This document shows positions 8,605 through 17,673 of a stretch of 39,303 nucleotides of DNA, in pieces. Position numbers and translations under genes: made by a program. Each line of letters begins with the position of its first letter. Positions within the stretch are counted from its first letter, which is position 1. This DNA comes from a bacterium (GTDB lineage Bacteria > CLD3 > SB21), in contig JAEUSK010000283.1 of NCBI GenBank assembly GCA_016787925.1, forward strand, positions 1 to 39,303, written 5' to 3'. The notes under the pieces were generated by a model. The model saw nothing but the letters and a program-made list of their open reading frames with translations, did no database searches and was not told the origin of the DNA.

Positions 8605-9948
8605 TCAATCACGATTTGACTTCTTATGCTTCAAGGCATCCAAGGGCTCCGGGATCCAATGATGAGTACCTCCGGCTAATTGGTCATTAAACGTAGTGGG
8701 TATGTTGCCTTTCTCTGTTCGGTCGTGCCAAGTCTCAACTTTTGAGCCGTCGTCCTTTCTAACCATCGTGATACAACCCTCCACCGGACATACGAGCGAA
8801 CAGAGATTACATCCGACGCAATTTTCTTCAATGATAAACGGAACACGCTGGCCATTACCTTTCGGTAAACCGATAGCCTGATGGGCACCGTCTTCACAGG
8901 CAATGTAACACAACTGGCATTCGATACATTTCTTTTTATTAATCTCGGCAATTACTTTGTAATTAAGATTCAGGTTTTCCCATGTCTTAATATTTGGTAG
9001 CGCTTTACCGACCATTTCATTAATATGGTTAAATCCTTTATCGGCCATATATCGTTCCAATCCGGGAATCATTTCGCGAATGATTCCAAAACCATAATGC
9101 ATCACGGCCGTGCAGACTTGTACGTTTGTTGCGCCAAGCAATATGAACTCAACCGCATCGCGCCAATTTTCAATTCCGCCGATACCGGAAATCGGTAAAT
9201 TAACTCCTTGCTCCTGCGCGCAATTCTTAACCATGTTCAGCGCAATTGGTTTTACCGCCGGGCCGCAATAGCCGCCGTTGGTACTCTTACCGTCTACGGC
9301 CGGATACGTAACAAAATTATCCAGATCCACACCGACTAAACTCTGAATGGTGTTGATAAGTGAAATGGCATCAGCGCCGCCTAGTCTTGCCGCAATGGCC
9401 GGCTCGGTTATATCGGTAATATTCGGCGTCAACTTAACAATAACAGGTTTTTTGGAGACCTCTTTGACCCAGGAAACAATGGTCTTTAACACGTTGGGTT
9501 CTTGGCCAACGGCGGAACCCATACCGCGTTCGCACATGCCGTGCGGGCATCCGAAATTCAATTCCACTCCGTCGGCGCCGGCGTTCTCCACGTCTTTCAC
9601 AATTTGATGCCACTCTTCTCGGCTTTGAACCATGAGCGATGCAACGACCGCATGATTGGGGAAATGTTTTTTTACTTCTTCTATTTCCCGTAAATTATCT
9701 TTAAGCGGACGGTCGCTGATCAGTTCAATATTGTTAAATCCCATCATGCGCGTATCGCGGTAATTCAATGCTCCATAACGGCTGGAAACATTGACGATCG
9801 GAATACCTAACGTCTTCCAAACGGCGCCGCCCCATCCTGCGTCAAATGCCTTCATAACTTGGTAGCCTGAATTCGTCGGCGGCGCGGAGGCCAGCCAAAA
9901 GGGATTAGGTGATTTTATGCCTGCAAAATTGACTGATAAATCCGGCAT
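8605..9948 (-). CDS. preA: NAD-dependent dihydropyrimidine dehydrogenase subunit PreA
   Basis: Pyrimidine-binding subunit that reduces uracil or thymine to the 5,6-dihydro form; 447 residues. Residues 1-310 form the FMN barrel of the DHODH superfamily, with the active-site loop NFGCPHGMCERGMGSAVGQ placing the general-acid Cys at 134. The C-terminus carries two [4Fe-4S] motifs: Cys341/344/347/351 and Cys377/380/383/387. NTIQSLVGVDLD and SGIGGIENW are flavin and substrate loops. AAAGGAG stands just before the ATG. It is last in the pyrimidine cluster, 59 nt after preT, its electron-input partner. A residue of note is Cys139 inside the loop (HGMCERG), where homologues I recall carry Ser or Gly. 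Confidence 0.94.
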   Translation of the reverse strand: MPDLSVNFAGIKSPNPFWLASAPPTNSGYQVMKAFDAGWGGAVWKTLGIPIVNVSSRYGALNYRDTRMMGFNNIELISDRPLKDNLREIEEVKKHFPNHAVVASLMVQSREEWHQIVKDVENAGADGVELNFGCPHGMCERGMGSAVGQEPNVLKTIVSWVKEVSKKPVIVKLTPNITDITEPAIAARLGGADAISLINTIQSLVGVDLDNFVTYPAVDGKSTNGGYCGPAVKPIALNMVKNCAQEQGVNLPISGIGGIENWRDAVEFILLGATNVQVCTAVMHYGFGIIREMIPGLERYMADKGFNHINEMVGKALPNIKTWENLNLNYKVIAEINKKKCIECQLCYIACEDGAHQAIGLPKGNGQRVPFIIEENCVGCNLCSLVCPVEGCITMVRKDDGSKVETWHDRTEKGNIPTTFNDQLAGGTHHWIPEPLDALKHKKSNRD

Positions 9949-10007
9949 GAAGTTCTCCTTTAATTTTTTGTAATTCTACCCGCAAAATCTCACTGCACGG
10001 CCAAATT

Positions 10008-11333
10008 CTATTTGCCAATAATAAACCGGTGAATGCCGCGTGCTGCAGCCTTGCCTTCTGCGGCCGCATTGACAACCTCTTTGCCGCCATTAGCTGCGTC
10101 ACCTGCAGCAAAATATTTCTTGTTTTTTGTCTGAAACATTTTATTGACTCGAATCCTCCCGCTATCGTCTAATTCCAATCCCGGTATGTGGCTGAAAAAA
10201 TCAACGTGTTTTGCCTGGCCCGTTGCCTTTATAACCATGTCGCAGTTTTCTACAAACTCAGTTCCTTTGATGGCTTCTATTTTCCCGCGTCTTGTTCGAG
10301 TTCGAATAAATTTGATACTTTCCACTTTAGTTTTTCCGATTATCTTGACAGGGGCAACATTGAACAAGCTTTTTACTCCAACTTTTTTTGCAAGCTCGTA
10401 CTCAAAATCATACGCCTTCATTTCTTCTTTGGAACGGCGATAGGCAAGAATTACTTTATCGGCCCCCATACGTGCCGATTCCGAAGCCGCATCCATGGCA
10501 GTGTTACCGCCACCGAGTACGATGACCTTGTTTCCGACGTGCACCCGATGTTGTGTCAATCTCAATTTTTCGATAAATTCCGTTGCGCCAACGCAGTTTC
10601 GCAAATTTTCACCAGAAATCTTTATTTCAGAAGTCTCACCAAGTCCAATTCCGATAAATATTGCGTCGTATTTTATTTCAAGCTTTTCAATATCTCTTTT
10701 GGATACTATTGGCGAACGGTATTTGACCGAAAATTCAAACTGCTCTTGAAGATATTTTATTTCATCCAGCGCCTCTTTATTCGTTATTTTATATGGTGCA
10801 ACTCCGTACAAAGTCAATCCGGACGGTTTTTCTTTGGCTTCGAATATATCAACCTCATAGCCCAGCATACGCAATTCACACGCGCAGGAAATCCCTGCCG
10901 GCCCGGCGCCGATCACTGCAACTTTCTTTCCGTTGGGTTTACCTGTAATGAATAATTTTTTATTTTGAATAATAGCTTGGGTCGTGGCAAAGCTTTGCAG
11001 GCGGCCGATTTCTATCGGTTTAATATGTTGATGATTGTAAACGCAAGCGCCTTCACACAGAACTTCCGTCGGGCAAACCTGCCCGCAGGCATGGCCGAGA
11101 TAGTTTGCGTCATAAATAGTTTTTGCCGCTCCGATGGTATTTCCGGAATGAATCTGGCGAATGAACAGCGGGATATCTATGCCGGTTGGGCATGCCTGAA
11201 TACAAGGCGCGTCATAGCAAAAGAGACAACGCGAGCTTTCGTAGTACGCCTGTGTTTCGTTCAGGAAGGGTTTGATTTGGGAAAAATTGCGATCAAATTC
11301 TTTTTTGGACGAAGGCCTTTGGAATTCCGACAT
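10008..11333 (-). CDS. preT: Dihydropyrimidine dehydrogenase subunit PreT (FAD/NAD(P) oxidoreductase)
   Basis: Electron-input subunit of bacterial dihydropyrimidine dehydrogenase; 441 residues. The N-terminal Fe-S domain has Cys36/39/44/48 (CLFCYDAPCIQACP) and Cys83/87/93/97 (CGQVCPTEVLCEGAC). The FAD dinucleotide fold follows with VAVIGAGPAGISCA at about 138-151, then the NAD(P) fold with VIVLGGGNTAMDAA. The C-terminal motif FAAGDAANGG closes the FAD site. The architecture matches glutamate-synthase small-subunit-like reductases, but the neighbouring preA and ring-opening enzymes fix the role. AGGA lies 8 nt before the ATG; the gene starts 21 nt after the beta-ureidopropionase stop. Confidence 0.93.
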   Translation of the reverse strand: MSEFQRPSSKKEFDRNFSQIKPFLNETQAYYESSRCLFCYDAPCIQACPTGIDIPLFIRQIHSGNTIGAAKTIYDANYLGHACGQVCPTEVLCEGACVYNHQHIKPIEIGRLQSFATTQAIIQNKKLFITGKPNGKKVAVIGAGPAGISCACELRMLGYEVDIFEAKEKPSGLTLYGVAPYKITNKEALDEIKYLQEQFEFSVKYRSPIVSKRDIEKLEIKYDAIFIGIGLGETSEIKISGENLRNCVGATEFIEKLRLTQHRVHVGNKVIVLGGGNTAMDAASESARMGADKVILAYRRSKEEMKAYDFEYELAKKVGVKSLFNVAPVKIIGKTKVESIKFIRTRTRRGKIEAIKGTEFVENCDMVIKATGQAKHVDFFSHIPGLELDDSGRIRVNKMFQTKNKKYFAAGDAANGGKEVVNAAAEGKAAARGIHRFIIGK

Positions 11334-11354
11334 AGAGTTTTCCTTTGTTTATTA

Positions 11355-12221
11355 TTAAAGCTCCACCAACTTCCCGTATGTCTCCGGACGGCGATCTCTG
11401 AAAAACTGCCAGGTAGCCCGCACTTCATCAATCATGTCGAGGTTAAAATCGGCAACAAGTAATTCGTCCTTATCCCCGGACGCTTCGGCAAATATCTGTC
11501 CGCGGGGATCAACGAAATAGGATGTTCCGTAAAACTTACCCAGATTCCACGGTTTCTCGGTTCCGACGCGATTGATGCAGCCCATAAAATAGCCATTTGC
11601 AACTGCATGCGCGGGCTGCTCTAATTTCCAAAGGTATTGCGACAGACCCGCAACGGTTGCGGATGGATTGTAGACAATTTCAGCGCCGTTCAATCCAAGA
11701 ATTCGTGCCCCGTCGGGAAAATGACGGTCGTAGCAGATATAAACGGCTATCTTGGCGTACTTGGTTTGAAATACAGGATAACCGAGATTACCGGGTTTAA
11801 AAAAGAATTTTTCCCAAAACCCAGAGGTATGCGGAATGTGATTTTTTCTATATTTGCCCAAATACGTACCATCGGCGTCTATCACCGCGGCAGTATTGTA
11901 CAAAACGCCCGGCTGTTCTTTTTCATAAACAGGAACAACCATAGCCATGTTATATTTTTTTGCATACGATTGCATTAGTTCCACCGTCGGGCCTGGAACG
12001 GATTCAGCAGATTCATACCACGATTTGTCCTGTCCTGGACAAAAATAAGGTGTGTTAAAAATTTCCTGTAAGCAAAGAATCTGAACGCCTTTCTTTCCTG
12101 CGTCTTCAATATACGGGATATGTTTTTGTACCATCGCATCGACAATTTCACGAATGGTACCTTCTCCCTCAGTTTTCGGTAGGCTCATTTGAATGAGTCC
12201 TGATTTGATCATGCGGGGCAT
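11355..12221 (-). CDS. Beta-ureidopropionase (nitrilase-superfamily N-carbamoyl-beta-alanine amidohydrolase)
   Basis: Third step of reductive pyrimidine breakdown: N-carbamoyl-beta-alanine (or the methyl analogue) to beta-alanine (or beta-aminoisobutyrate), CO2 and ammonia. It is 288 residues, with the nitrilase catalytic triad Glu53 (LQEIFN), Lys126 (YRKNHIPH) and Cys163 (YICYDRHFPDG). By sequence alone N-carbamoylputrescine amidase is a close alternative. Location between dihydropyrimidinase and preTA makes beta-ureidopropionase the better call. GGAG lies 5 nt before the ATG. The upstream neighbour on the same strand is a transposase, so its link to the upper operon may be interrupted. Confidence 0.88.
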   Translation of the reverse strand: MPRMIKSGLIQMSLPKTEGEGTIREIVDAMVQKHIPYIEDAGKKGVQILCLQEIFNTPYFCPGQDKSWYESAESVPGPTVELMQSYAKKYNMAMVVPVYEKEQPGVLYNTAAVIDADGTYLGKYRKNHIPHTSGFWEKFFFKPGNLGYPVFQTKYAKIAVYICYDRHFPDGARILGLNGAEIVYNPSATVAGLSQYLWKLEQPAHAVANGYFMGCINRVGTEKPWNLGKFYGTSYFVDPRGQIFAEASGDKDELLVADFNLDMIDEVRATWQFFRDRRPETYGKLVEL

Positions 12222-12299
12222 GGTGTCTCCTTGTGACAGTTGGTTCCCCCGGGATGGGGGCTAGTTAATTACCAAAACGTTTGTCTATATCTTTTTTGG

Positions 12300-12332
12300 A
12301 TTTCCAACGCACTTTTGAAGTGCGTTGGAAAT
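12300..12332. repeat. REP-like hairpin downstream of the RAYT gene
   Basis: Perfect 15-bp stem: ATTTCCAACGCACTT (12300-12314), loop TTG, AAGTGCGTTGGAAAT (12318-12332). It sits 17 nt beyond the transposase stop. The ten stem pairs next to the loop are identical to those of the hairpin at 12943-12975. Such palindromes are typical substrates or end structures of RAYT transposases. Confidence 0.85.
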
Positions 12333-12349
12333 AAATTGAAAATAAACTG

Positions 12350-12925
12350 TTACTCATCAAACAAATACTTTTCCAATAATTTCTTATCCTTAACCGATTG
12401 AGTATCATTCACAAAGGCAATGTAGTCGTTGGCGGTTTTAAAAAAGGACTCAACAAATTCTTTGTCGATAAGCAGTCCCGCGCGCTTGTTAATCCATTCA
12501 AGATAATTAGAAAATTCCCATTTTTCCAAATCACTAACTAATTTTGCTTGCAGTGGGTTTCTGTGAATGTATCTACACAAATGAACCAGGTAATCATCAT
12601 CAGCAACGTGAATAGATTTGAAAGGACTTTCGAACAGTGTCCCGGTTCGATTGTACATTTTGTTAAACGCTTTCGAATAGCTGTTGAAGACGGCTTGTAC
12701 AAAGGTGCCGATTGTTACTTCTGAATTTTGACGCAACAAAAAATGATAATGATTCGGCATAAAACAGTACGCTATAACAGTTACATGAAATTCATCAAGG
12801 TATTCTCGTACGCGACGCAAAAGAAATCTGTAATTTTCTTTGCTACGGAATATCTTTCCTCGATTACAGCCCCGGTTGTATACATGATAGTAGGAGCCTT
12901 TTTCAAAATTGATTTTTCTTTTCAT
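12350..12925 (-). CDS. REP-associated tyrosine transposase (RAYT, Y1/HUH family)
   Basis: A 191-residue IS200-like single-strand transposase. Start taken as ATG 12925; an upstream TTG at 12973 lies inside the flanking hairpin and is unlikely. The HUH metal motif is in MPNHYHFLL (His59, His61) and the nucleophile is probably Tyr83 in VFNSYSKAFN. The typical RAYT motif YNRTGTLFESPFKS and RYIHRNPLQAKLV are also present. It resembles domesticated RAYTs that act on REP palindromes rather than a self-spreading IS. The gene appears intact and lies between dihydropyrimidinase and beta-ureidopropionase in the same direction as the operon. Confidence 0.93.
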   Translation of the reverse strand: MKRKINFEKGSYYHVYNRGCNRGKIFRSKENYRFLLRRVREYLDEFHVTVIAYCFMPNHYHFLLRQNSEVTIGTFVQAVFNSYSKAFNKMYNRTGTLFESPFKSIHVADDDYLVHLCRYIHRNPLQAKLVSDLEKWEFSNYLEWINKRAGLLIDKEFVESFFKTANDYIAFVNDTQSVKDKKLLEKYLFDE

Positions 12926-12942
12926 TAAACTTTTATTTGCTT

Positions 12943-12975
12943 CTTTGCAACGCACTTTAAAAGTGCGTTGCAAAG
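12943..12975. repeat. REP-like hairpin upstream of the RAYT gene
   Basis: Perfect 15-bp stem: CTTTGCAACGCACTT (12943-12957), loop TAA, AAGTGCGTTGCAAAG (12961-12975). It lies 18 nt before the transposase ATG. Relative to the downstream hairpin, two outer positions differ and both partners have changed, so pairing is kept. Confidence 0.85.
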
Positions 12976-12991
12976 GAAGCGGTGCAAACCT

Positions 12992-14374
12992 TTAAACCGC
13001 CGATGACGACCTTCCGCGCTTGATGAATTTACCATACCCTTTTTCGATCATTGCTTTTCCGTTGTCAATTGCCACTTTCCCTCTCAGTATGACTGTCTTA
13101 CATTTCCCTGTAACCTGCCAGCCCTCATAGGCGGAATAATCGCAACGATGATGATGCGTTTTCGCAGAAAGAGTATGTTTTTCATTCGGGTCAAATATCA
13201 CAATATCTGCATCCGAGCCGATGCCGATGGATCCTTTTTTTGGAAACATGCCGAATACTTTAGCCGCATTAGTGGAAGTCACTTCCACGTATTTATTCAA
13301 GCTGATTTTTCCTTTGTGTACGCCTTCGGAATACAGCAATTCCATTCGGTGTTCCAGTCCGGGATGCCCGTTCGGAATTTTGGAAAAATCATTTTCACCC
13401 ATTTTCTTTTGTTCCCAGTTGAAAGGGCAGTGATCCGTTCCGACAATATTGACAATGCCCTGATTGAGTCCTGCCCACAATGATTCCTGATCTTTTTTCT
13501 CGCGCAGCGGCGGACTCATCACCCATTTGGCCGATTCAAAACCCTTGTCATACAGCGAAGCATCAAGCAGAAGGTATTGAACACACGTTTCAACAAAAAC
13601 TTTCTGATTTCGTTTGGCCGCATCGCGAACCTGATTGAGTGCGCCTTCGCAGGTAAGATGAACAATATACGATGTCACGCCCGTGTGGTAAGCCATGTCG
13701 ACAAATCGTCCGGAGGCTTCCGATTCGGTGATTTCAGGCTGTGAAAGATAGTGATACAGCGGAGAAAGTTTGTTTTCCGAACGATGCTTGGCAACAAGGA
13801 AATCGATCATGTCACCGTTGGTCGCATGCACCGTCACCATGCCGCCTTGCTTTCGAACTTCGTTCATCAAACCAACCATCTGGCGATCGTCGATCATTAA
13901 TGCGCCTTTATAAGCCATGAACGTCTTAAAAGACGTAATGCCTTCCTTTTCGATCATTTCTTTAATTTCATTTTTCGTGTTGTCATTAAAGTCCGTCACA
14001 GCCATGTGAAATGAATAGTCGCCGAGCGCGTTACCGTTCGAGCGTCCTTGCCACGCCTCTAGCGCCGAATGCAGCGACTTACCCTGCGTCTGTAAAATAA
14101 AATCAATGACTGTGGTGGTTCCGCCGAATAACGCAGCGCGCGTTCCTGTTTCATAATTATCGCTGGAATATGTTCCCATAAATGGCATGTCGAGATGCAC
14201 ATGAGGATCAATACCGCCCGGGAAAACAAGTTTCCCCCCGGCGTCAATAACCTGATCGGCTTTCATATTCAAGTTTTTCCCAATTGCCGAAATGGTTTCG
14301 CCTTCAACAAAAATATCGGCAACGTGATCATCTGATACGGTGATCACCCGTCCGTTTTTGATAAGTAATGACAT
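12992..14374 (-). CDS. hydA: Dihydropyrimidinase (D-hydantoinase family)
   Basis: Opens the ring of dihydrouracil or dihydrothymine to the N-carbamoyl-beta-amino acid. It is a 460-residue cyclic amidohydrolase with the two-metal site visible: His58/His60 (DPHVHLD), carboxylated Lys150 (TSFKTFMAYKG), His183 (VHATNGD), His239 (IVHLTCEGA) and Asp314 (GTDHCPFNW). The frame extends 62 codons upstream to 14560, but GGAGGAC directly before ATG 14374 and the family N-terminus (MSLLIKNGRVIT) settle the start. It follows the NCS1 carrier; downstream lies the RAYT element and then the next pathway enzyme. Confidence 0.95.
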   Translation of the reverse strand: MSLLIKNGRVITVSDDHVADIFVEGETISAIGKNLNMKADQVIDAGGKLVFPGGIDPHVHLDMPFMGTYSSDNYETGTRAALFGGTTTVIDFILQTQGKSLHSALEAWQGRSNGNALGDYSFHMAVTDFNDNTKNEIKEMIEKEGITSFKTFMAYKGALMIDDRQMVGLMNEVRKQGGMVTVHATNGDMIDFLVAKHRSENKLSPLYHYLSQPEITESEASGRFVDMAYHTGVTSYIVHLTCEGALNQVRDAAKRNQKVFVETCVQYLLLDASLYDKGFESAKWVMSPPLREKKDQESLWAGLNQGIVNIVGTDHCPFNWEQKKMGENDFSKIPNGHPGLEHRMELLYSEGVHKGKISLNKYVEVTSTNAAKVFGMFPKKGSIGIGSDADIVIFDPNEKHTLSAKTHHHRCDYSAYEGWQVTGKCKTVILRGKVAIDNGKAMIEKGYGKFIKRGRSSSAV

Positions 14375-14414
14375 TGCGTCCTCCAATCTTGAAAAAATCA
14401 ATTGCCAATAAGAC

Positions 14415-14482
14415 CCGGAGACACTAAGGCTCACGAAGAGAACCAAAAAGTGTCTGTGCGTGGTGTCTTCGAGACTTTGTGA
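14415..14482. repeat. Candidate dispersed intergenic repeat (GACAC/CACGAAG type)
   Basis: The gap between the NCS1 carrier and dihydropyrimidinase holds an imperfect inverted repeat made of GACACTAAGGCTCACGAAGA-like and GTGTCTTCGAGACTTTGTG-like arms. I recall similar CACGAAG/TTCGTGT sequences as dispersed intergenic repeats in other bacterial genomes. It looks non-coding despite being in frame with the upstream extension of the dihydropyrimidinase frame. Confidence 0.4.
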
Positions 14483-14490
14483 AAAATGGG

Positions 14491-16212
14491 TTACTGTTTT
14501 ATTTTCGACTTCATCAATAAATAATAGATTCCTCCGGAAACCAAAACTCCGGTGAACCATGATAAATGGTAAAATATTTCCAGCGCTGGAATCCAGTAAC
14601 CGATGAGCGCTGATAAAACGCCTGCGGCTAAAGCGACCATTGCGAAAGGATTGAAATTCCTGCCGCCATAGGCATACTCGCTATCGATCTTGTACAAAGC
14701 AGCCAAATTCAAAGAGGTTTTTTTTATTAAGTAATAATCGCAAACCAAAATCCCTAAAACAGGCCCTAGTGCCCCGCTGACGAATATTAATATGCTGCTA
14801 ATTTCATTGAGCAGCCACCACGGGCAAATAATAATGCCGATAAAACCCGTGATAACGCCGCCTCCGAAAAAGCTGATTTTTTTTGGAGATAGATTTGAGA
14901 ATGCATTTGCCGGCGCAATGACATTGGCCGCAATATTGGTTGTCAATGTTGCCATGATCATAAATATTTGGGAAACAATGACGAGAGTAGGGCTCTCCAG
15001 TTTGGCTAACAAAGAGACCGGATCCCACGGCGCATCGTCAGCGATCAAGATATCTTTGAAATTAATTACCGTAGCGCATGTAACGAATATGCCGACAAAC
15101 GAATACAAAACCATAGCCCCGGGCAATCCTAAAAATTGACCGGCTACCTGGTCTTTTTGTCTGGACGCATAACGCGTGATGTCTGAGATGCTCAACGACA
15201 TGGTCGCCCAGAAACCTACCATGGCCGTTAGCCAGAGAATGTAACTTAAAAAACTTGGGCTGCCGTCTGTTAGTTTCGTTATGCTCACATTCACAATACT
15301 GGATTTAATGGTTTCACCGGTGCGGAATTGTACCACCACAGGTTTTTTGCCGGCTGCCAACGATCCTTTGTCGATTTCCGGATCTTCGGGAAGTTGAAAT
15401 TTATTCAAAATAGGAATCCAGCCCAACGCCTTTCGAGAGCCATCATTGAGTGGAACAGAAACTTGAAATTCGGCAGCTTTATTACTGCCGTCGGGATTCA
15501 GCAGCGGATTTAATTGTAGCATGATGGCGCCATTGATCTCATGCATTACTACTGACGGTTTTCCAAGTTGTTCGCCCTGGTCGAGCACAATACCAAAGCC
15601 GCCCGCTTTATTTGCGCTCCACGCGATAAGAACAACGCCGATAATAATTAAAATGGGCGCGGATAAATTTTCCAGCCACTTAATACTTTCAGTGCCCTTC
15701 CAGATGAAGTACATATTAACCAGCCAGAACAAACCGAAACATACAAACTTTCCAATGCTTAATTCCGGAGTACCATCACTGCCGGTCAGAGAATTCCAGA
15801 TTGCATAAAATGCCAAACCGCCGATCCACGTCTGCACGCCAAACCATCCGCAAGCTACAACGGCTCTTAAAATGGAGACGAGGTGAATTCCGGTAATGCC
15901 GAAAGACGCTCGTCCGAACACGGGAAAGGGAATTCCATATTTTACGCCCACGTGTCCGTTCAACACCATAGGAATAGTGACCAGAATATTCGCTAAGCCG
16001 ATGATAATGAGTGAGGCTTGCCAACTCAATCCTGACTTGATCATGTACGACGCTAAAATATATGTCGGTATGCAAACGGCCATCCCAACCCACAAAGCGG
16101 CCAGGCTCCACATGTTCCACGTTCTTTTGTTTTTTGGAACCGGCGCCAGATCGGCGCTATACAGAGGGGAAGACGAAAGGTCTTCTGCTAATTCAATGAT
16201 TTCTGAGTTCAT
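14491..16212 (-). CDS. NCS1-family nucleobase/hydantoin:cation symporter with extra periplasmic domain
   Basis: A 573-residue inner-membrane carrier. The N-terminal half shows NCS1 landmarks: WNMWSLAALWVGMAVCIPTY (TM1), GIPFPVFGRASFGI and RAVVACGWFGVQTWIGG (TM3). TM6 begins near residue 322 and includes MSLSISDITRYAS. Between TM5 (ends near 201) and TM6 lies a hydrophilic stretch of about 120 residues (about 202-321), where hydantoin carriers such as Mhp1 (about 490 residues) have a short loop; topology puts it outside. The likely cargo is uracil, thymine, a dihydropyrimidine or hydantoin, given the neighbouring genes. No strong Shine-Dalgarno before the ATG. Confidence 0.9.
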   Translation of the reverse strand: MNSEIIELAEDLSSSPLYSADLAPVPKNKRTWNMWSLAALWVGMAVCIPTYILASYMIKSGLSWQASLIIIGLANILVTIPMVLNGHVGVKYGIPFPVFGRASFGITGIHLVSILRAVVACGWFGVQTWIGGLAFYAIWNSLTGSDGTPELSIGKFVCFGLFWLVNMYFIWKGTESIKWLENLSAPILIIIGVVLIAWSANKAGGFGIVLDQGEQLGKPSVVMHEINGAIMLQLNPLLNPDGSNKAAEFQVSVPLNDGSRKALGWIPILNKFQLPEDPEIDKGSLAAGKKPVVVQFRTGETIKSSIVNVSITKLTDGSPSFLSYILWLTAMVGFWATMSLSISDITRYASRQKDQVAGQFLGLPGAMVLYSFVGIFVTCATVINFKDILIADDAPWDPVSLLAKLESPTLVIVSQIFMIMATLTTNIAANVIAPANAFSNLSPKKISFFGGGVITGFIGIIICPWWLLNEISSILIFVSGALGPVLGILVCDYYLIKKTSLNLAALYKIDSEYAYGGRNFNPFAMVALAAGVLSALIGYWIPALEIFYHLSWFTGVLVSGGIYYLLMKSKIKQ

Positions 16213-16289
16213 GCGTTTTCTGGTGTATCTGTAATGTTAACAGAAAATTCATTTCCGTCAACCACTCTAGTTTACACGGATAAAACATT

Positions 16290-16321
16290 CTGCGCGAATC
16301 CGCGAAATTTGCGGGGGATAA
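16290..16321. repeat. Candidate dispersed repeat with CCGCGAAATTTGCGG hairpin
   Basis: In the aminotransferase-NCS1 gap the sequence TGCGCGAATCCGCGAAATTT followed by GCGGGGGAT forms a small CCGC/GCGG stem. It resembles intergenic ATCCGCGAAATT-type repeats I recall from other genomes, but only one copy is visible here. Confidence 0.3.
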
Positions 16322-16335
16322 ACTTATTGATCGCT

Positions 16336-17673
16336 TTAGTGGCAATATTCATCTGCAACCGAAATGGCCGTGGAAATAATATCCAGTCCCTCGTCAATTT
16401 GTTCTTTAGTCACGCAGAGCGGAGGCGCAGTGAATATCCAATTCCAGCGAACGAAAGTGAACATGCCGAGTTCTGAGATCTTTGCTGCAACTTTGTTCAT
16501 CACTTCCATTTCATCCGGTTTTGCGTTCCACGGCGCCATGGGTTCTTTGGTGTCGCGGTTTTTTACGAGTTCGATACAGCCGAGCAGGCCGGTATTGCGA
16601 TAATCACCGATGGAAGGATGTTTTTTCTTTAATTCGTCAACACGGCTTTCGATATAGCGCCCCATATTCGCCGCATTTTCAATTAGATTTTCTTCTTCAT
16701 AAATTTCTAGACATGCTAATGCGGCTGCGCAAGCTACCGCATGGGCGGAATAGGTCAATCCAAGCGGCAGCGGTTTGTCATCAAAATTTTTGGCAATTTC
16801 TTCCTTAACCATAATGCCGCCGAGCGGAATATATCCGCACGTAAGTCCTTTCGCCATGCACACGATGTCGGGTTCAATTCCGTGATGCTCGATCGCAAAC
16901 ATCTTTCCCGTTCTTCCGAAACCGCTCATCACTTCATCGTCAATCCACAAAATACCGTACCGATCGCAGATCGATTTTAATTTCTTAATATAGCCAGGAG
17001 GATATTTGATACAACCGGAGGAACCGGATTCGCCTTCGAATAAGAGCGCGGCAACATTTTGCGGGCCCTCGTACTTGATCACGCGTTCAACATGAGCGGC
17101 TGCGCGATCGGAGCATTCCTCGAGCGTTTTACTTCCCCAGGGACATCGGTAAAAATAAGGATTTTCAACATGAACAAAATTCGGCGCAGCCTGGCTGTCC
17201 ACCGCCAATCGCCGGGGATCGCCTCCGGCTGAAAACGCGCCGTAACTTGCTCCGTGAAACGATTGGTATTGCGTGATGATTTTATGGCGGCCTGTGTAAA
17301 TGCGAGCTAACTTAACCGCGTTTTCTACCGCCTCGGCGCCGCCCAGCGTAAAAAAAGTTTTGTTCAGATTGCCCGGGCTGATTTCAGATAATTTTTTTCC
17401 AAGGTCGCCGCGAACTTTCGTGATCATTCCCGGATAAACATAACTCACTTCATTCATCTGTTTCGTCACCGCTTCAGTTACTTTCGGGTGTCCGTGGCCA
17501 ATATTGACATTCATCAGCTGAGAGGAAAAATCAAGATAACGTTTTCCACCGCGGGCGTAGAGATAAACGCCTTTTGCTTTTTCGATGTTAATGGGGTTCA
17601 ATCCGCTTTGTTTCGACCATGAAAAAAGCGTGTGATTTATATTATTCTGCAGAATTTGCTGTGGATCAATCAT
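16336..17673 (-). CDS. Class III PLP aminotransferase, probable beta-alanine/beta-aminoisobutyrate:pyruvate transaminase
   Basis: A 445-residue fold-type I class III aminotransferase. PLP-binding features are GGAEAVENAVKLAR (about 111-124), FHGASYGAFSAGG, the Asp246 motif in WIDDEVMSGFGRTGK, and Schiff-base Lys275 in CMAKGLTCGYIPLGG. In this cluster it would convert beta-alanine to malonate semialdehyde, or beta-aminoisobutyrate to methylmalonate semialdehyde, the substrates of the adjacent MmsA. Taurine:pyruvate aminotransferase is a sequence-similar alternative, so substrate is inferred from context. The gene starts 94 nt after mmsA; no clear Shine-Dalgarno. Confidence 0.87.
   Translation of the reverse strand: MIDPQQILQNNINHTLFSWSKQSGLNPINIEKAKGVYLYARGGKRYLDFSSQLMNVNIGHGHPKVTEAVTKQMNEVSYVYPGMITKVRGDLGKKLSEISPGNLNKTFFTLGGAEAVENAVKLARIYTGRHKIITQYQSFHGASYGAFSAGGDPRRLAVDSQAAPNFVHVENPYFYRCPWGSKTLEECSDRAAAHVERVIKYEGPQNVAALLFEGESGSSGCIKYPPGYIKKLKSICDRYGILWIDDEVMSGFGRTGKMFAIEHHGIEPDIVCMAKGLTCGYIPLGGIMVKEEIAKNFDDKPLPLGLTYSAHAVACAAALACLEIYEEENLIENAANMGRYIESRVDELKKKHPSIGDYRNTGLLGCIELVKNRDTKEPMAPWNAKPDEMEVMNKVAAKISELGMFTFVRWNWIFTAPPLCVTKEQIDEGLDIISTAISVADEYCH

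Follow-up and report, generated by a model that had tools for sequence, protein, structure and literature searches.

The gene for a RAYT (REP-associated tyrosine transposase) and two hairpins found within a 39,303-nt contig stretch (hereafter the window) are best explained as a lone REPtron-like unit from a clade of RAYTs without GTAG tags, in which the RAYT would nick and move its cognate hairpins; the probability of this reading is put at roughly three in four. Part of this explanation is that the presence of the unit in the lineage is independent of the operon that hosts it. The hairpins of the clade typically measure exactly 15-3-15 nt, carry no GTAG tag and consist of four six-base blocks in alternating orientation, separated by three-base spacers.

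An earlier note on this DNA described an intact Y1/HUH gene bracketed by two perfect 15-bp hairpins with 3-nt loops, and this anatomy is confirmed. The hairpin downstream of the gene (hairpin D, 12300..12332) reads ATTTCCAACGCACTT-TTG-AAGTGCGTTGGAAAT, and the upstream one (hairpin U, 12943..12975) reads CTTTGCAACGCACTT-TAA-AAGTGCGTTGCAAAG; each has 15 of 15 positions paired, around loops of TTG and TAA respectively. The inner ten pairs are identical, as the note had claimed, and between the two full stems 13 pairs are the same, two are compensated and none is unpaired. The compensated differences affect the outermost pair (A-T versus C-G) and the pair adjoining CAACGC (C-G versus G-C). No other perfect stem of at least 10 bp (loop 3-8 nt) exists anywhere in the window, for which the chance expectation of perfect 15/3 hairpins is about 4e-5 (0.004 per 3.6-Mb genome). 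Folding z-scores range from -7.4 to -7.6, and none of 200 shuffles folds equally well. Beyond one bulged base, hairpin U gains four to five outward pairs (GCTTC...GAAGC, 12943-12985) that hairpin D does not have. The 5' GTAG/GTGG tag is absent at the feet of both hairpins, the GGGGWSAS motif (the majority TIR type) occurs in neither, and an Rfam search matched them to no known RNA family.

The RAYT itself (12350..12925, minus strand) is an intact protein of 191 aa. An alternative ORF with a TTG start reaches 12973, and would thus begin inside hairpin U; the ATG at 12925 is the likelier start. Pfam assigns Y1_Tnp (7.5e-13) and no other domain. The sole NCBIfam family matched is the RAYT model NF047646, at 68.6 bits against a curated cut-off of 80, a model that all 32 aligned relatives match too; the sub-cut-off score lowers the standing of the protein as an NCBI-defined equivalog, not the case that it works like one. 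The HUH motif MPNHYH (His59, His61; 12743..12760) and the tyrosine motif YIHRNP (12554..12571) both lie on the minus strand, and the two histidines as well as Y119, H121, N123 and P124 are invariant in the 32 relatives. Tyr119 is identified by homology as the catalytic tyrosine. The AlphaFold2 model (mean pLDDT 92) has as its best solved structure match 4er8, a complex of TnpA_REP with a REP hairpin (E 1.4e-8, TM 0.71 by target length). With the HUH motif, a tyrosine motif of the YxxxNP type and the Y1 fold, the protein has the motifs and the fold of class 2 TnpA_Y1 (RAYT/TnpA_REP).

A scan of GTDB species genomes yielded 80 RAYT relatives with 34-63% identity, mainly from Chloroflexota and Cyanobacteriota, with further members in Bacteroidota, Ignavibacteriota, Chlorobiota, Cloacimonadota, Fidelibacterota, Poribacteria, Planctomycetota and others. 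Hairpins of at least 12 pairs occur at 2.08 per kb within 260 nt of these genes, versus 0.13 per kb in control sequence 600-2500 nt away, a 16-fold enrichment. Among loci with enough flank, stems of at least 12 are found on both sides in 34 of 80, on one side in 12 and on neither side in 34. Exactly 15 contiguous pairs with a 3-nt loop is by far the commonest form (33 of 88 hairpins). The upstream hairpin could be set against the downstream one at 30 loci, which gave 392 identical pairs, 53 that differ in a compensated manner and 11 that differ on one side only, with loss of pairing; two poorly aligning loci (L104 and L098) contribute 22 of the 53, and without both the figures are 31 versus 8. 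The coupling of the RAYT to structure-conserved hairpins, which the note proposed from a single locus, thus recurs in many relatives.

The arms have an internal symmetry as well. Each 15-nt arm is quasi-palindromic, with 5.2 of 7 self-pairs compared to 1.80 +/- 0.15 in shuffled arms, and the symmetry is centred on the arm midpoint (0.74 paired, versus 0.19-0.32 for shifted axes). The element therefore has a 6-3-6-3-6-3-6 layout, for example AGGTGC-GAC-GCACTT-TGA-AAGTGC-GTC-GCACCT, in which the outer ends (AG...CT) differ from the inner ends because the second position within the arm is often G.T. In the window hairpins the inner blocks GCACTT/AAGTGC are retained, as is the triplet AAC/GTT; the outer blocks have diverged (3 of 7 self-pairs), with the long stem still perfect. 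Arm sequence tracks RAYT phylogeny (37 loci, Mantel r 0.47, a value reached in 0 of 5000 permutations), and the hairpins closest to those of the window, from L066, L092, L065, L068 and L064, mostly accompany RAYTs that are also near on the tree. At another locus (L006), a RAYT with 40% identity and motifs of the MPTHFH / YIHQNP type has a longer composite palindrome (GAGCCTCACTGGGAGTGAGAATCTCAGA...) on both flanks, which represents a different hairpin architecture.

The 53 compensated and 11 one-sided differences agree with the claim of the note that structure rather than sequence is conserved, with the caveat that palindromes can also correct themselves by template switching during replication, a class of mutation documented in two reports (PMC8794818, PMC7202029). 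It is a serious possibility, though somewhat short of an even chance, that the stem changes are mainly mutational, with one arm of a quasi-palindrome copied from the other, and do not reflect selection on the fold. In its favour, copies that stand alone and have no apparent function are well paired too. However, a stem of 15 and a loop of 3 have been held across phyla, arm sequence follows the RAYT, and the nested symmetry has been preserved, which self-correction acting on the long stem would leave unexplained. The mutational account is compatible with a REPtron-like unit, and both fold constraint, which the compensated changes fit, and template switching, which also matches arms, probably contribute.

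Dispersed copies of the hairpins are present in genomes of relatives: 19, 15, 10 and 8 in four genomes of the GCACTT type, and up to 24 in those of the AGACCT type. In the 19-copy genome, a RAYT is found in only one of the fetched regions; the hexamers of the copies are almost invariant, their middle triplets vary, and 12 of the 19 are fully paired. The 24-copy genome has 18 fully paired copies and three covarying positions (13 CG and 11 TA; 13 GC, 10 CG and one mismatch; 12 AT and 12 GC). Among 18 copies fetched from two Stenomitos genomes, 16 have 15 of 15 pairs. GTAG or GTGG lies near only one of 36 Stenomitos hairpin feet, and no conserved tetranucleotide was found at the feet, beyond a weak pyrimidine preference at -2 (33 of 36).

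Presence, absence and exchange of hairpins were observed at orthologous sites in this one genus. The RAYT unit is common to Stenomitos genomes, and two comparisons place the end of the homology precisely at the foot of the upstream hairpin, on its outer side. One coding site that is orthologous among four genomes has a AGACCTCCGAGGTTT hairpin in genome G161, a hairpin of the AGATCCCCGACTTCT type, which is the type flanking Nostoc-group RAYTs, in G168, and none in G169 and G172. A second site shows the same AGACCTCCGAGGTTT/AGATCCCCGACTTCT difference between G161 and G168, and at a third a hairpin common to G161 and G172 is missing in G169. The sites with two unrelated types or none (comparisons of L236 with L243, L244 and L245, and of L239 with L250) look as if one family had replaced the other or both had hit one site; because all these sites are few and flanking identity is about 80%, the exact junctions are uncertain. 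A 41-nt stretch past the downstream hairpin of a Stenomitos RAYT (L129:3667-3707) also recurs in the genus (98% in G172), and is perhaps another part of the mobile unit.

The genomic setting of the window unit is an apparent reductive pyrimidine catabolism cluster (8605-17673, minus strand) encoding a class-III aminotransferase, an NCS1 permease, dihydropyrimidinase, a carbon-nitrogen hydrolase, preT and preA. On the minus strand, the dihydropyrimidinase gene (12992..14560, TIGR02033 above cut-off, stop at 12992) is followed after 16 nt by hairpin U (12975-12943), after a further 17 nt by the RAYT (ATG 12925, stop 12350), after another 17 nt by hairpin D (12332-12300), and after 78 nt by the carbon-nitrogen hydrolase gene (11355..12221, PF00795), preT and preA. 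The dihydropyrimidinase ORF overlaps the permease, and its N-terminal part is therefore probably over-extended, with the true start further in. The hydrolase is probably a beta-ureidopropionase, a pathway role that is suggested by the operon. The unit does therefore sit between two genes of one pathway in the same direction, as the note had it.

The assembly (3.6 Mb, 312 contigs, 95% complete) contains a single such RAYT, and the genome-wide search for more hairpins or REPINs that the note had called for returned only U and D, with no further copies either exact or at up to 3 mismatches; there is thus no REPIN population in this genome. Two genomes of the same genus have an identical gene order, at 87-91% DNA identity, without the RAYT or the hairpins, and the unit was therefore gained here or lost there. 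In these congeners the intergenic region is about 170 nt long, with 92% identity from one to the other. The 95 intergenic nt of the window that lie beyond the hairpins cannot be aligned to it, so no exact empty or insertion site can be read. The congener region contains a different repetitive sequence, GGTAAACGGATTGAACGGATTGAAC, with complement-like copies (L034:2883-3053 and L035:694-868), unrelated to that of the window. None of the RAYT relatives lies beside dihydropyrimidinase, ureidopropionase, preT or preA, and one has an aminotransferase-like gene nearby. Given this and the two congeners that lack the unit, its location inside the pyrimidine operon is most likely incidental. A conserved association with pyrimidine genes was looked for and not found, and the suggestion of the note that the unit has a conserved role in the operon was not borne out.

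Absence of the whole unit from the congeners, together with an HUH-Y1 fold and hairpins on either side, would also suit an IS200/IS605-like insertion sequence that moves as one piece, the hairpins forming its left and right termini. This is improbable, as the unit is single copy, the dispersed hairpins in relatives are mostly solitary and without a transposase, and YIHRNP is a class-2 motif of the YxxxNP type, not the YxxxQ of IS200 (motifs as in PMC6006769). Slightly less probable still is a domesticated single-locus pair without mobility, in which the hairpins would be operators or mRNA structures for self-regulation of the RAYT. One gene and only two hairpins in the genome, with hairpin U ending 17 nt before the start codon, would be expected of such a pair, but the catalytic residues are kept, relatives have dispersed copies, and the RAYT is dispensable, since the congeners do without the gene. 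Least probable is that the hairpins act in RNA by stabilising the operon mRNA or by adjusting how strongly the ureidopropionase and preTA genes downstream are expressed: they are stable and stand between two co-directional genes of one pathway, and mRNA can be stabilised by REPs (PMC6006769), but the unit is missing in both congeners with the same operon, the units of relatives are not by these genes, and searches yielded neither a terminator-like or promoter site at the unit nor an Rfam match.

For the lone REPtron-like unit, a mechanism may be proposed by analogy with characterised TnpA_REP proteins, which bind single-stranded REPs with varying GTAG dependence and cut at CT beside the hairpin (PMC8266576). 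The hairpin would fold when the DNA is single-stranded, and the RAYT would bind the fold, nick beside it via Tyr119 and rejoin the ends, with the result that hairpins may be inserted, lost or exchanged. In the genome analysed here, such spread would never have occurred, or would not have survived. Several points count against this explanation, namely the absence of dispersed copies from that genome, the 34 of 80 relatives with no stem of at least 12 on either side, the lack of a tag or common foot sequence, the small number of sites with movement, and the lack of an exact empty site. With no tag and a stem that reads identically on both strands, strand choice would have to differ or be absent. 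More tentatively, the clade may have its own recognition code, based on a tagless, two-fold symmetric substrate whose arms are half-sites or small hairpins. Such a substrate may allow the enzyme to use either strand, or to engage two half-sites as a dimer, and single 33-nt hairpins could be inserted, removed and exchanged, with one family even taking the place of another at a given site.

This clade bears on the question of how palindromes are disseminated by RAYTs. Its hairpins lack a tag and have one set size across several phyla, which makes the clade a ready counterpart to GTAG systems for asking if strand choice and cleavage depend on the tag. In addition, comparison of the Stenomitos sites gives direct evidence that hairpins are gained, lost and exchanged.

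Among known systems, IS200/IS605 elements share the HUH-Y1 fold and the hairpins on either side, whereas the elements described here have no multi-copy unit, a class-2 tyrosine motif and perfect symmetric hairpins. Elhai reportedly described, in 2008, small dispersed repeats of cyanobacteria, including very short mobile hairpin-forming repeats in Nostoc, and the cyanobacterial members of the 15-3-15 class might overlap with these. REPtrons (PMC2817692, PMC6006769, PMC8266576) likewise combine a Y1 HUH protein related to TnpA_REP with palindromes on either side of the gene, palindromes that are dispersed in relatives and whose sequence tracks the RAYT, and REP_Sm, too, forms a perfect palindrome around a 3-nt loop (PMC8266576). 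They differ from the present clade, which has no 5' GTAG/GTGG tag, a stem and loop fixed at 15/3, quasi-palindromic arms, and copies that are mostly solitary and, in the genome of the window, not dispersed at all.

Quentin (2018) assigned the signature NH[YF]H / F (at the W position) / Y[IV]HLNP to TnpA_Y1 subclass 2.1, comprising long proteins with a C-terminal HTH domain for which no REP-like sequences were reported (PMC6006769). The window RAYT (NHYH, LFE, YIHRNP) is close to this signature but not identical, and membership is not claimed because proteins of this clade are shorter (191 aa for the window RAYT), have no HTH in Pfam and are accompanied by hairpins. This suggests that palindromes can accompany RAYTs with a subclass 2.1-like signature, for which none had been reported. 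Among openly licensed papers, a search for the hairpin sequences gave no match, and none was found to describe hairpins with the fixed 15-3-15 nested form. The nearest described kind is the TIRYTs of Di Nocera (2013), RAYT-like genes flanked by non-GTAG repeats, some of them wholly self-complementary and some forming dispersed families (PMC3733652). The TIRs in that text are mostly long inverted repeats, several with GGGGWSAS, and the fixed nested form does not figure there, although the two kinds may overlap. As in a TIRtron, the unit in the window is a RAYT-like gene between non-GTAG inverted repeats, here with outer arms of 34 nt that are 88% complementary and self-complementary.
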